A stretch of DNA of 64,000 nt from Bradyrhizobium sp. AZCC 1721 (lineage in GTDB: Bacteria; Pseudomonadota; Alphaproteobacteria; Rhizobiales; Xanthobacteraceae): contig NZ_JAZHSB010000001.1 of NCBI RefSeq assembly GCF_036924715.1, positions 1,417,001-1,481,000 of the forward strand. The letters are read 5' to 3'. The notes under the pieces are model-generated. The model did not search any database. It was not told the origin of the DNA and was given only the letters and a program-made list of their open reading frames with translations. The translations under genes were made by a program, and so were the position numbers. Shown here piece after piece: positions 49,837 to 53,318 of the stretch. Position 1 is the first letter of the stretch; each line of letters begins with the position of its first letter.

Positions 49837-51765
49837 ATGAATTATGATTTCGCGAGTTTGTCCCACAGCGAGTTTGAGGATCTCGCCCGCGACCTCGTTG
49901 GGCGCGAGATAGAGCTGCGTTTCGAAGCCTTTGCCGAGGGCCCGGACGACGGGATGGACGGCCGCCATGCGCGTGCCGATGGATCGATCGTGATGCAGGC
50001 GAAGCATTATCACGGGTCCGGTTTCGCGGCGTTGAAGTCGAAGATGACGAAGGAGCGGCTATCCATCGACCGGCTGGCGCCGACGCGGTACATCCTTGTG
50101 ACCTCTGCGCCACTCACGCCAAAGAACAAGAATGCGTTGGCCGAGATCGTCGGCCCATCGCTGCGAACGCCGGGCGACATCTTCGGACCCGGCGACCTCA
50201 ACGCCCTGTTGCGCAAATATCCAGACATCGAGAAGGCCCATCAAAAGCTTTGGGCGCAGAGCACATCGGTTCTGCAAACGGTTATCACTGAGGCCGTCGG
50301 AAAGGCACTTTCAAAGCCGGGGGCGGTTCCCGCCGTCCTTGCCAATCTCCTGCCCCCTAGGGAGGCTACCGGAAACGCAGCGCCTGTCGAGAAAGCGGCT
50401 CGGGACACCATATTTCTAATCAAGGCGTCGCCGATCGACGACGAATTCGCGCTTTGGCTCGCGCCCAAGCTTGAGGCCGAAGGGTACCGCGTGTTCGCCG
50501 ACATCCTGACGCTTCAGCCCGGCGACCGATGGCGCCGTGAGATCAATCAGGCGCTGCAATACCGGGCGGCGAAAGTTCTGCTCCTCTGCCGCGATGCCAC
50601 GCTCTCCGACTCGCATGTCCAGGACGACCTCGATATTGCGCTGGAGTTGTCGAAGGAGCTAGACGATTCCCGGTTTATCATTCCGCTGCGGCTCGAACCG
50701 GGAAAGAAGGTCAAGGGCGTCGGTGATGCGGTGACCGTCGATTTTGTGCGCGGCTGGGGAGAAGGCGTCGGCCTCCTGCTTGACGCGCTGCAGCGCCAGA
50801 AAGTGCCACGTCCCGCTGGCCAGACAGTGATCGATCCGAATTGGGAGGTTTTCCGGCGGCGCGGCGCGATCCCGCTCGTCGAGGAAGCCGAGCGATTGAC
50901 CTCGAACTGGCTGCGCGCCGCCGAAGCGCCCGACGTCATCCGATTTTTCGAGAGCTCCGGCGCGATCGAGGGCCGATTGCTCGATCGCGCGCTCGAGGAT
51001 TTCCCCTATCCGTGCGCGAAACAGGGCTCCGGTATTATCACCTTTGCGGAGCAATCCGAAGTCGACACCGCGTACGCGTCTGCCGGCCGGTTCAAGCTGA
51101 AGCACGAGATCCCGTTGCTGGAATTTGTCGACAACGGCTTTTCTCCGCTCGGGATCGAACGTCAGGTCGCGTCCAACCTGGTCATCGCGATGATCAAGAA
51201 AGCATGGCTGTCGTTCTGCAGGGAGAAGGGCTTCGTCGAGTATCACTATTCTAACGCTGTCGGCTTCCACGCTTCGGCCGCGCAGGCGGCGATCGGACGA
51301 CGCATCCCTTGGGGCAAGCAAGGCGACCGGCGGTCCTCAATGCTTCGCAATGTCGCGAAGGGACATATTTGGCAGTTCGGCGTCACCGCGATGCCCTATT
51401 TCTGGCCGTTCTGGCACCTCAAGCTCAAGGCGAGGGTCCTGTTCGCGGTCGATAACGAAACACCGGCGGGTCTCAGCATCGACGATCCCAGGAAGCTGCA
51501 CCGTTTGCGGCGAAGCATTTGCAAGGGTTGGCGCAACAAGCAGTGGCATGGCCGCATGCTCGCATTTCTCGAGCTGCTTTCGGGTGAGTCGGCCTATATC
51601 AGGTTGGCGCTGTCGGCGAACGCCGCGCTCCTGATCGAAGCCGCGCCGATGTTGTTCACTTCGCCGGTGAGCACCGCGCTTCCCAACGTTCTCGATGCCG
51701 ACGAAGAAGAGACCGATAGCAGCACGCTTGGTCGGCCGGACAATGATGACGAGGTTGAGGAATGA
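49837..51765 (+). CDS. Mrr nuclease-TIR-APAZ protein, partner of short Argonaute (SPARTA-like)
   Basis: 642 aa from ATG 49837 (a TTG at 49801 is the longer alternative). Domain 1, residues 1-150, is an Mrr-like PD-(D/E)XK nuclease of the kind fused to STAND defence proteins: E14 in SEFEDLARDL, D41 in PDDGMDGRH, and Q54-x-K56 in VMQAKHYH. Domain 2, about 188-330, is a TIR domain resembling SPARTA TIRs (KLEAEGYRVFADILTLQPGD), with D264 where the catalytic Glu is expected. Domain 3, 345-625, is APAZ (LRNVAKGHIWQFGVTAMPYF, GWRNKQWHGRMLAFLELL). APAZ binds the Argonaute and holds guide and target. On target recognition the complex presumably fires its effector to kill or halt the invaded cell. Confidence 0.9.
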   Translation: MNYDFASLSHSEFEDLARDLVGREIELRFEAFAEGPDDGMDGRHARADGSIVMQAKHYHGSGFAALKSKMTKERLSIDRLAPTRYILVTSAPLTPKNKNALAEIVGPSLRTPGDIFGPGDLNALLRKYPDIEKAHQKLWAQSTSVLQTVITEAVGKALSKPGAVPAVLANLLPPREATGNAAPVEKAARDTIFLIKASPIDDEFALWLAPKLEAEGYRVFADILTLQPGDRWRREINQALQYRAAKVLLLCRDATLSDSHVQDDLDIALELSKELDDSRFIIPLRLEPGKKVKGVGDAVTVDFVRGWGEGVGLLLDALQRQKVPRPAGQTVIDPNWEVFRRRGAIPLVEEAERLTSNWLRAAEAPDVIRFFESSGAIEGRLLDRALEDFPYPCAKQGSGIITFAEQSEVDTAYASAGRFKLKHEIPLLEFVDNGFSPLGIERQVASNLVIAMIKKAWLSFCREKGFVEYHYSNAVGFHASAAQAAIGRRIPWGKQGDRRSSMLRNVAKGHIWQFGVTAMPYFWPFWHLKLKARVLFAVDNETPAGLSIDDPRKLHRLRRSICKGWRNKQWHGRMLAFLELLSGESAYIRLALSANAALLIEAAPMLFTSPVSTALPNVLDADEEETDSSTLGRPDNDDEVEE

Positions 51766-53318
51766 GATTTCCTGAGAAATCTCTTCAAGTCGAACACTTC
51801 GACGAACCACCGCTGGAGTTTGCATTCTCGCAGCGCAGTCCGCACCCCAAGGACGGGTTGTTCCTTTATGGACCTCACGCCAAGGCTAAGAAGAGCCGCG
51901 AGATTCGGGTCGGCGTAGTCGGCACCACCGACGGGATCGGTCACTTTCGGGCATGGGGCCGAAAGCTCAAATCGGTCGTGCGCGTCCCGCCCCCCGGAAA
52001 AGGCGAAAAGGCCGACCGGCTGCACCTCGCGAACTTCCCTGGGCTGGACGAAGCGTTCGGGATTTCGTTCGAGCCGGACGAAGTCAGCGCCCTGTCGATT
52101 CCATGGAAGGACATCGATCGCGCAACGCGCATCATTAACCTCAACGAGGCCGTGGACAAGGTCGCGCGCCTCTACATCGATCGCGTCAAGCAGCACTTGC
52201 GCAACGACGAGCGATCGGTCGAGGTCTGGATCCTGATCCTGCCAGAAATCGTCTACGAGCGATGCAGGCCTCAGTCCAAGCGAACGGGCCTGCCAATGGA
52301 AAAGGGGGAGTTCACGAAGCGGCAAAAGGCGAAGGAGAGCATCCCGCTGCTCGCCGCCATGGGCGCCGTCAATCAGACCAACGAGGCGATTTTCGAGGAC
52401 GTCCCGGATTTCCATCGCAGGATCAAGGCCGAGTTCCTGAAGATCGCGCCGACCCAACTGGTTCGCGAGACGACGCTCGCGCCGGGTGCCTATCTCAACA
52501 AGGCCGGATACCCGCTGCGCAAGACGCAGGACGCCGCAACGGTTGCCTGGAATCTCGCCACCGGGCTCTACTACAAGACGCAGCCGAAGCCACCGTGGCG
52601 GCTGGCGGATGTTCGGGCGGGGGTCTGCTACATCGGCATGCTCTACAAGAGCCTGCCGAACGATCCCGATGGGCATGCCTGCTGCGCGGCGCAGATGTTT
52701 CTCAACGAGGGAGACGGTGTCGTATTTCGCGGCGCCAATGGACCGTGGAAGACCGGAGATTACGATTATCATCTCAAGGCGCCCGCGGCGAAGAACCTGC
52801 TCGCGCTGGTGCTGAAGACCTACGCTGAGACGCATGGCGGCCCGCCCAAGGAGCTGTTCATCCATGGGCAGACCTATTTCAATGACGAGGAGTGGAACGC
52901 CTTTGTCGAGGCGGCGCCGAAGGAGACCAACGTCATCGGCGTGCGAATCCGCTCGACCGGCGGCGAGACGAAGCTTTTTCGTGATGGCGACTATCCCGTG
53001 CTGCGCGGGACCGCGCTCATGCTCGATGATCAGACGGCCTATCTTTGGACGACGGGCTATGTGCCGCAGCTCGACACCTACATCGGGCCCGAAACGCCCA
53101 ATCCGCTGCACATCACTGTGATACGCAGCAAGAAGGCAAAGCCCGACATTCGCACGGTGCTCGCAGACATCATGGGTCTCACCAAGATCAATTACAACTC
53201 CTGTAACTTCAATGATGGCCTTCCTGTCACCGTCCGATTTGCGCGGATGGTTGGGGACGTCCTCACTATGGGGTCGGCGAAGGGAGAGGAAAAACAACCG
53301 TTCAAGTTTTATGTGTGA
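51762..53318 (+). CDS. Short prokaryotic Argonaute (MID-PIWI), catalytically inactive
   Basis: 518 aa, starting inside the stop of the APAZ gene (ATGA), so the two are made together. The N-terminus PPLEFAFSQRSPHPKDGLFL is the short-pAgo opening. The MID domain (about 130-265) carries VWILILPEIVYERCRPQSKR, the guide 5'-end pocket region. The PIWI domain (about 280-518) has AGVCYIGMLYK and KELFIHGQTYF where active Argonautes have catalytic Asp residues, so it cannot slice. There are no N or PAZ domains; APAZ in the partner substitutes. It ends with FKFYV, the hydrophobic C-terminus typical of Argonautes. Role: guide-directed sensing of foreign DNA or RNA, activating the partner. Confidence 0.93.
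   Translation: MRFPEKSLQVEHFDEPPLEFAFSQRSPHPKDGLFLYGPHAKAKKSREIRVGVVGTTDGIGHFRAWGRKLKSVVRVPPPGKGEKADRLHLANFPGLDEAFGISFEPDEVSALSIPWKDIDRATRIINLNEAVDKVARLYIDRVKQHLRNDERSVEVWILILPEIVYERCRPQSKRTGLPMEKGEFTKRQKAKESIPLLAAMGAVNQTNEAIFEDVPDFHRRIKAEFLKIAPTQLVRETTLAPGAYLNKAGYPLRKTQDAATVAWNLATGLYYKTQPKPPWRLADVRAGVCYIGMLYKSLPNDPDGHACCAAQMFLNEGDGVVFRGANGPWKTGDYDYHLKAPAAKNLLALVLKTYAETHGGPPKELFIHGQTYFNDEEWNAFVEAAPKETNVIGVRIRSTGGETKLFRDGDYPVLRGTALMLDDQTAYLWTTGYVPQLDTYIGPETPNPLHITVIRSKKAKPDIRTVLADIMGLTKINYNSCNFNDGLPVTVRFARMVGDVLTMGSAKGEEKQPFKFYV

Follow-up and report, generated by a model that had tools for sequence, protein, structure and literature searches.

The best-described relatives of the system analysed here are the SPARTA complexes, in which a short prokaryotic Argonaute (pAgo) with an inactive PIWI domain is coupled to a TIR-APAZ partner. 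Binding of target DNA assembles four SPARTA complexes via their TIR domains, and this assembly is required for activity (PMC10474274). The residue responsible for hydrolysis of nicotinamide adenine dinucleotide (NAD) is Glu77 on helix αC (PMC11156904); the E77A variant serves as a dead control, and Thr11 and Glu77 are reported to line the NAD pocket (PMC10474274). In SPARDA, tetramerisation turns on an effector nuclease that cuts collaterally, and the pAgo of NbaSPARDA assembles into filaments (PMC12205087). Here we analysed a stretch of 64,000 nucleotides from Bradyrhizobium sp. AZCC 1721 (hereafter the window), which carries a short-Argonaute operon whose TIR-APAZ partner bears an additional Mrr-type nuclease. 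Based on sequence comparisons, we consider it probable that this partner gained the nuclease and lost the catalytic glutamate of its TIR domain; because of this gain and loss, the effector role likely falls to the nuclease, with the TIR domain likely reduced to an assembly switch.

The architecture itself is known. Makarova 2009 (PMC2743648) describes proteins with an extra PD-(D/E)XK domain ahead of TIR, a 2018 paper lists TIR-APAZ and Mrr-type partners (PMC6299218), PMC12205087, citing another paper, labels clade S2A "(Mrr-)TIR-APAZ", and a 2024 paper presents the same architecture and terms it double-effector (PMC10810196). The initial annotation of the window, made from the letters alone, had noted that genomic surveys list Mrr and TIR among APAZ partners. 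This is correct, and the case is stronger still, as publications already describe the complete fusion (PMC2743648, PMC10810196, PMC12205087). In their accessible text, the published catalogues list the domains of the fused form or count two effectors, and the loss of the TIR glutamate goes unmentioned; as far as its text was available, the open-licence PMC literature yielded no report of the lost glutamate or of an assay of the fused form. The evidence for effector replacement is the new contribution.

The partner protein and its short Argonaute

The partner gene is a continuous frame of 642 codons plus stop (Table 1), and the 27 aligned relatives all have Met at its start codon. The ATG of the pAgo gene at 51762 shares an ATGA with the partner stop, in accordance with the translational coupling proposed in the initial annotation, and the pAgo start lies at most 29 nt from the partner stop in 74 of 80 related loci, where the start closest to that stop was taken as the pAgo start. 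The AlphaFold2 model of the partner has a mean pLDDT of 84.6 and a pTM of 0.52. The three-part composition proposed earlier, an Mrr-like nuclease, TIR and APAZ next to a short pAgo, was confirmed by the open frame and the domain matches, and the PADLOC model PDLC02416 (Aga_REase-TIR-PNTD1-PNTD2) scores 958 bits over residues 1-641. A nuclease, TIR and APAZ in a single chain adjoining a short pAgo thus place the locus in the already catalogued REase-TIR-APAZ group of PDLC02416 and clade S2A. The clade probably goes back to Koopal 2022. The higher-scoring model PDLC02400 spans the nuclease (639 positions) yet is named only TIR-PNTD1-PNTD2; because of this name, automatic annotation may overlook the nuclease.

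The idea that the N-terminal part could be a separate frame or gene did not hold, as the frame is continuous here and in homologues, which also rules out the nuclease as a mis-annotated neighbour. A match reached the N-terminal part in 50 of the 80 loci, with the frame open over at least 600 residues in 44 and interrupted in six. In these six (L046, L075, L078, L089, L096 and L106; 6/50 nuclease-fused loci), a pAgo match lies downstream of the interrupted partner gene.

Both the partner and the pAgo find their best Protein Data Bank (PDB) matches among SPARTA chains. The pAgo shares 39% of 491 aligned residues with Map pAgo and has no acidic residue at any of the four PIWI tetrad positions, as in the inactive pAgo of SPARTA coupled to a TIR-APAZ partner. 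The residues contacting the guide 5' end in Map pAgo, Tyr148 and His207, are conserved as Tyr165 and His218. The operon layout is like that of MapSPARTA and CrtSPARTA, and TIR-APAZ aligns with theirs end to end. In contrast to SPARTA, the window protein has an extra N-terminal nuclease, the position of TIR Glu77 is occupied by another residue, and Arg114 and Asn116 of SPARTA fall in an alignment gap, though the TIR fold and the BB loop are kept. The fusion of a nuclease to APAZ is shared with SPARDA, but the pAgo and APAZ are closest to SPARTA rather than to the SPARDA branch, and in the characterised SPARDA systems the nuclease is a different one, DREN, with no intervening TIR domain before APAZ.

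The nuclease residues named in the initial annotation, E14, D41, Q54 and K56, were found at their positions, and the proposed Mrr/PD-(D/E)XK fold also gained support. The Pfam family Mrr_cat matches the full partner with an E-value of 0.0043 and 17.6 bits, below the 21-bit cut-off; each of the 27 sequences aligned over the N-terminal part is matched at E ≤ 0.01, the lowest E-value being 2.3e-7. The nuclease was folded and searched alone; the VIA-align rows of the whole protein barely cover it. The best VIA-align matches of the model of residues 1-156 are the N-terminal part of Avs4, ranked first, and then the restriction enzymes AspBHI and MspJI. Because of the 27/27 Mrr_cat matches and the VIA-align result, on which the assignment rests, it is sound despite the weak single-sequence Pfam score, and both the fold and the E..D..QxK signature are present. 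Foldseek with the same model gave no match under E 0.001, and no PDB entry scored below E 0.3 in HMMER when the nuclease was used by itself or as a profile. The SPARDA nuclease DREN is absent from the VIA-align and Foldseek rows listed for the model, which does not exclude kinship. Since D41, Q54 and K56 define the fused set used below, their invariance there is by construction; E14 and D37 provide the independent check and are conserved in 78/78 non-redundant fused proteins, E14 being kept in all 245 of the 247 fused rows that have that position.

The TIR domain and its glutamate position

TIR_2 matches residues 200-311 with an E-value of 2.4e-17. Residues 189-290 align with residues 2-103 of the SPARTA chain 8fex_A without a gap, so that residue 264 corresponds to the catalytic Glu77 and is Asp in the window protein, a departure from SPARTA. 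An alignment slip was rejected, as the segment Lys246-Pro283 has equal length in three proteins: that of the window, one from Sagittula with Leu, and L032 with Glu.

Position 264 was followed through 412 rows, of which 247 carry the nuclease motif; some of these are near-identical, and they reduce to 78 at 85% identity. The rows came from protein searches, with the best 120 of 751, of 173 and of 890 matches used, and from a contig search, in which 80 of 100 relatives were kept and used; the fused and unfused sets are therefore best-scoring matches and not random samples. Seven locus open reading frames (ORFs) shorter than 430 residues were left out (L033, L046, L078, L089, L091, L106 and L111). 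Residue 264 is Asp in 121/121 when the window protein and the best 120 matches of a protein search are taken. Over the 247 nuclease-bearing rows it is D in 188, L in 37, M in 6, V and N in 5 each, and A, R, I, T, G and E in one each, and Glu is thus missing in 246/247, the lone Glu being that of protein P0161. Rows without the nuclease motif have Glu in 147/150. The three deviating rows are pieces of fused genes: P0058 and P0160 are cut-short fused proteins, and the nuclease part of L075 lies about 1.2 kb upstream of the remainder. The non-redundant unfused set has Glu in 110/110, and so do all 13 of the nearest unfused loci (L090, L092-L095, L097, L099-L102, L104, L105 and L107), which are 48-61% identical to the window protein and include L102 from Bradyrhizobium iriomotense. 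A group of 13 partial rows consists of seven cut-short fused proteins (Asp in five, Ala in one, Met in one), L098, which is cut by a contig end and has Leu at 264, and five proteins that have Glu and differ at the N-terminus. L119 and L122 were initially grouped as fused; their N-terminal part differs, and Glu is present.

The initial annotation had left the choice between two working effectors and the replacement of one by the other. With Glu lost in 246/247 fused rows, kept in unfused ones, and the nuclease residues conserved, the evidence speaks for the second option. P0161 combines an intact nuclease motif with Glu264, and its sister P0162 has Gly; judged by its sequence, P0161 could serve as a natural test case for regained NADase activity. 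Asp263 (50623-50625) and Asp266 (50632-50634), which flank the lost Glu, are acidic in nearly all fused proteins.

Phylogeny, column-wise change and the origin of the nuclease

A TIR-APAZ tree was built from 94 rows, 54 of them fused. The fused rows form a single clade with an SH-aLRT of 100, which sits within a grade of unfused rows that have Glu (SH-aLRT 81-97 at the forks). The 94 rows were taken from 148 representatives, with 28 of the 82 far unfused rows included; column 264 was omitted, and the quick search provides SH-aLRT values without bootstrap. The fused rows include three cut-short ones grouped by hand (L075, L098 and P0155), of which L098 has no visible nuclease. Because the fused clade is nested within unfused rows, the unfused state with Glu is likely ancestral, and a fused ancestor with loss of the nuclease in unfused proteins was rejected on the same grounds. 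Since the fused proteins are one clade inside the unfused ones, the gain of the nuclease and the loss of Glu likely fall on the same branch; this coupling is a single event, which limits what can be drawn from it. Two changes of the Glu state suffice, a loss and then a return in P0161, which pairs with the Gly-bearing P0162 inside the clade.

By parsimony, residue 264 changed 12 times over 15.69 substitutions/site in the fused clade, versus no change over 28.76 in the unfused tree, and the nuclease residues E14, D37, D41, Q54 and K56 show no change in the fused clade (nuclease-domain median 9). Scanning 339 TIR-APAZ columns identified six with excess changes in the fused clade past the Bonferroni threshold (260, 547, 195, 200, 544 and 264). 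Columns 544 and 547 are not comparable, being gaps in 28/40 unfused rows. The other four lie at the end of strand βA, in the following loop and at the start of helix αC, adjoining the reported NAD pocket residues Thr11 and Glu77. Ser195 is constant in the 40 unfused tree rows (104/107 in the wider non-redundant set), and column 195 is Ile, Leu or Val in 53/54 fused rows. Seven columns show a deficit of changes past the same threshold, all in APAZ (589, 542, 586, 363, 585, 504 and 520). The TIR core columns W207, L208, L212, G216, G229, F303 and W307 stay fixed, and P228 and R231 of the BB loop show no change in the fused clade versus 7 and 11 in unfused rows, with G229 unchanged in both. Because the pocket columns change while the core and BB-loop columns stay fixed, the pattern fits a TIR domain maintained for its shape and its contacts and no longer for its chemistry.

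Several observations weigh against a TIR domain without catalytic function: the window protein retains an acid at the Glu position, one fused homologue has Glu264, Trp232, aligned with the pocket residue Phe45, is kept in 77/78, and Asp263 is acidic as in sister loci, with Asp266 enriched in the fused clade. A true double effector, whose TIR would still hydrolyse NAD(P)+ with Asp264 replacing Glu while the nuclease cuts nucleic acids, would draw on the retained fold and Trp232, on an acidic Asp as the commonest state (188/247 fused rows) and on the Glu of P0161. However, relatives with Leu, Met, Val, Asn, Ala, Arg, Ile, Thr or Gly at residue 264, the relaxed pocket loops and the replacement of Ser195 make this unlikely in our view. 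The same conserved Trp232 and Asp263 and the enriched Asp266 could instead mark the pocket as a regulatory site, gating the nuclease by binding NAD or another nucleotide without hydrolysis; given that both pocket loops vary (columns 195, 200, 260 and 264) and that the ligand is hypothetical, we regard such a role as very unlikely.

The nuclease has close relatives outside Argonaute systems. When 72,556 plasmid records were searched by tblastn with the full-length protein, 63 gave matches, and these fall into three kinds: fused proteins, TIR-APAZ proteins of the unfused type, and proteins similar to approximately residues 1-200 only. Five of the last kind, H40-H44, are 55.6-60.1% identical to the window nuclease over about 150 residues; Argonaute-linked nuclease domains of the Rhodobacterales type (e.g., L076 and L103) are 53-55% identical to it. 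Of 26 listed nuclease-only matches, 16 were fetched, and 15 are nSTAND3 ATPases by Pfam, L138 being a 160-residue fragment. In 5/5 nuclease-only proteins tested, the top-ranking PADLOC model is the candidate PDC-S73, and the active-site residues are the same in five aligned nSTAND3 nucleases where the stretch is present. The nSTAND3 ATPases thus carry an N-terminal Mrr nuclease like the one here, but with a STAND ATPase as sensor instead of an Argonaute. Avs4, the first-ranked structural match, is a STAND sensor as well. Its chain 8dgf_B is 13% identical and was solved with a phage portal protein according to the entry title, indicating a different sensor. In the nuclease-domain tree, the Argonaute-linked domains group together (SH-aLRT 94), including L138 beside the Argonaute-linked P0096, and the nSTAND3 rows L041, L042, L043, L045 and L128 adjoin this group. 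Because the tree is rooted at the midpoint and its 16 non-Argonaute rows are all from plasmids, a transfer from nSTAND3 to Argonaute systems is the likely direction and not more than that.

The N-terminal domain of STAND defence proteins is usually the effector. This bears on the proposal that the nuclease does not kill, processing guides or nicking the recognised target so that the target is destroyed without collateral damage. Its biochemical activity is wholly predicted, and characterised enzymes of the superfamily are site-specific double-stranded DNA endonucleases (PMC2743648), as such a role would expect; the same module at the head of 15 nSTAND3 proteins and the collateral cutting of SPARDA (PMC12205087) make it most improbable.

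Genomic setting and proposed mechanism

Table 1. Positions of the operon and its features in the window
Feature	Positions	Strand	Evidence
Partner gene, Mrr-like nuclease-TIR-APAZ, 642 residues	49837..51765	+	Open frame; PADLOC PDLC02400, 1165 bits
N-terminal Mrr-like PD-(D/E)XK nuclease domain, residues 1-155	49837..50301	+	
E14, nuclease active-site position	49876..49878	+	Identical in 78/78 non-redundant fused proteins
D41, nuclease active-site position	49957..49959	+	Identical in 78/78 non-redundant fused proteins
Q54-A55-K56, nuclease QxK motif	49996..50004	+	Q54 and K56 in every fused row having that stretch
Linker, residues 156-188	50302..50400	+	Partly low-confidence: pLDDT < 50 at 157-159 and 178-183
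TIR domain, residues 189-322, predicted pseudo-NADase	50401..50802	+	TIR_2 E 2.4e-17; aligned with SPARTA TIR
Asp264 at the position of SPARTA catalytic Glu77	50626..50628	+	Ungapped alignment; non-Glu in 246/247 fused rows
APAZ domain, residues 345-620	50869..51696	+	
ATGA start/stop overlap of partner and pAgo genes	51762..51765	+	Sequence
Short pAgo (MID-PIWI), 518 residues	51762..53318	+	SPARTA pAgo chains in PDB, best E 3.4e-105; PADLOC pAgo_I, 719 bits

Upstream of the operon, a tRNA-Met (45271-45347) is followed by recombinase-like ORFs (45271-49202 in all). The ORF at 45887-46999 is recombinase-like in appearance and has no Pfam match; DUF6538 (ORF 47119-48651) and Phage_integrase (ORF 48294-49202) occupy different reading frames that overlap, and the integrase gene therefore looks broken. 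The Argonaute operon begins 635 bases beyond 49202, and this arrangement of tRNA-Met, recombinase-like ORFs and operon suggests a genomic island; a direct-repeat search of 45200-64000 for the island end found no repeat of the tRNA-Met. The convergent neighbours on the minus strand (53393-58164) encode a DUF2130 protein, an AAA ATPase, a DUF6634 protein and a calcineurin-like phosphoesterase, the last matching PADLOC PDC-S10 with 31.6 bits.

The PADLOC profile PDLC02403 matched 42 of 398 genomes of the phylum, with the full model covered only in the window itself and in G194; the remaining matches span at most approximately 150 of 443 positions, in the TIR part. A search with residues 1-153 matched 2/385 genomes of the class, and one scan of viral contigs with P0001 found no relative. 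Several TIR-APAZ relatives differ in other ways. In two Bradyrhizobium loci (L119:4380-6392 and L122:4470-6395), another N-terminal extension of about 180-210 residues, without a Pfam match, is possibly another added module, and Glu is retained. A Latescibacterota protein (L115:4746-6449) has an N-terminal helix-turn-helix (HTH_3), L117 and L118 of the same group start like it and likely share the helix-turn-helix, and all three keep the TIR Glu. In a Rhizobium sophoriradicis plasmid (L036:4427-7278), the ORF at the pAgo position is short (552 bases), and IS66 genes come next.

With SPARTA as the model for the sensor and SPARDA as the model for the output, the simplest mechanism may be proposed for the fused systems by analogy. 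An ancestral SPARTA system would have acquired the nuclease module of a STAND-type sensor, after which NAD hydrolysis became dispensable and the pocket decayed. The pAgo-APAZ dimer would carry a guide RNA, and complementary target DNA would make the complexes assemble via their TIR domains, now bearing a nuclease and no NADase. This assembly would bring several nuclease domains together, and their indiscriminate cleavage of DNA, perhaps also of RNA, would kill or arrest the infected cell. In effect, a SPARTA chassis would deliver an output like that of SPARDA, and its TIR domain would be a pseudoenzyme. In its full form, we lean towards an exchange of weapons, in which the nuclease of a STAND sensor was placed onto SPARTA and the TIR domain was disarmed in the same step, the dead TIR persisting to trigger, by oligomerisation, a collateral nuclease programmed by the guide; the class described as double-effector would then have a single effector, on a scaffold that is a pseudoenzyme.

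If true, the published expectation of two simultaneous actions would be overturned, with NAD remaining and DNA being lost. The family would provide a natural case in which an immune effector was replaced on a conserved sensor while the old effector stayed on as scaffold, and it would show that effector modules are exchanged between Argonaute systems and STAND ATPases. A guide-programmable Mrr-type collateral nuclease could also become a detection tool.

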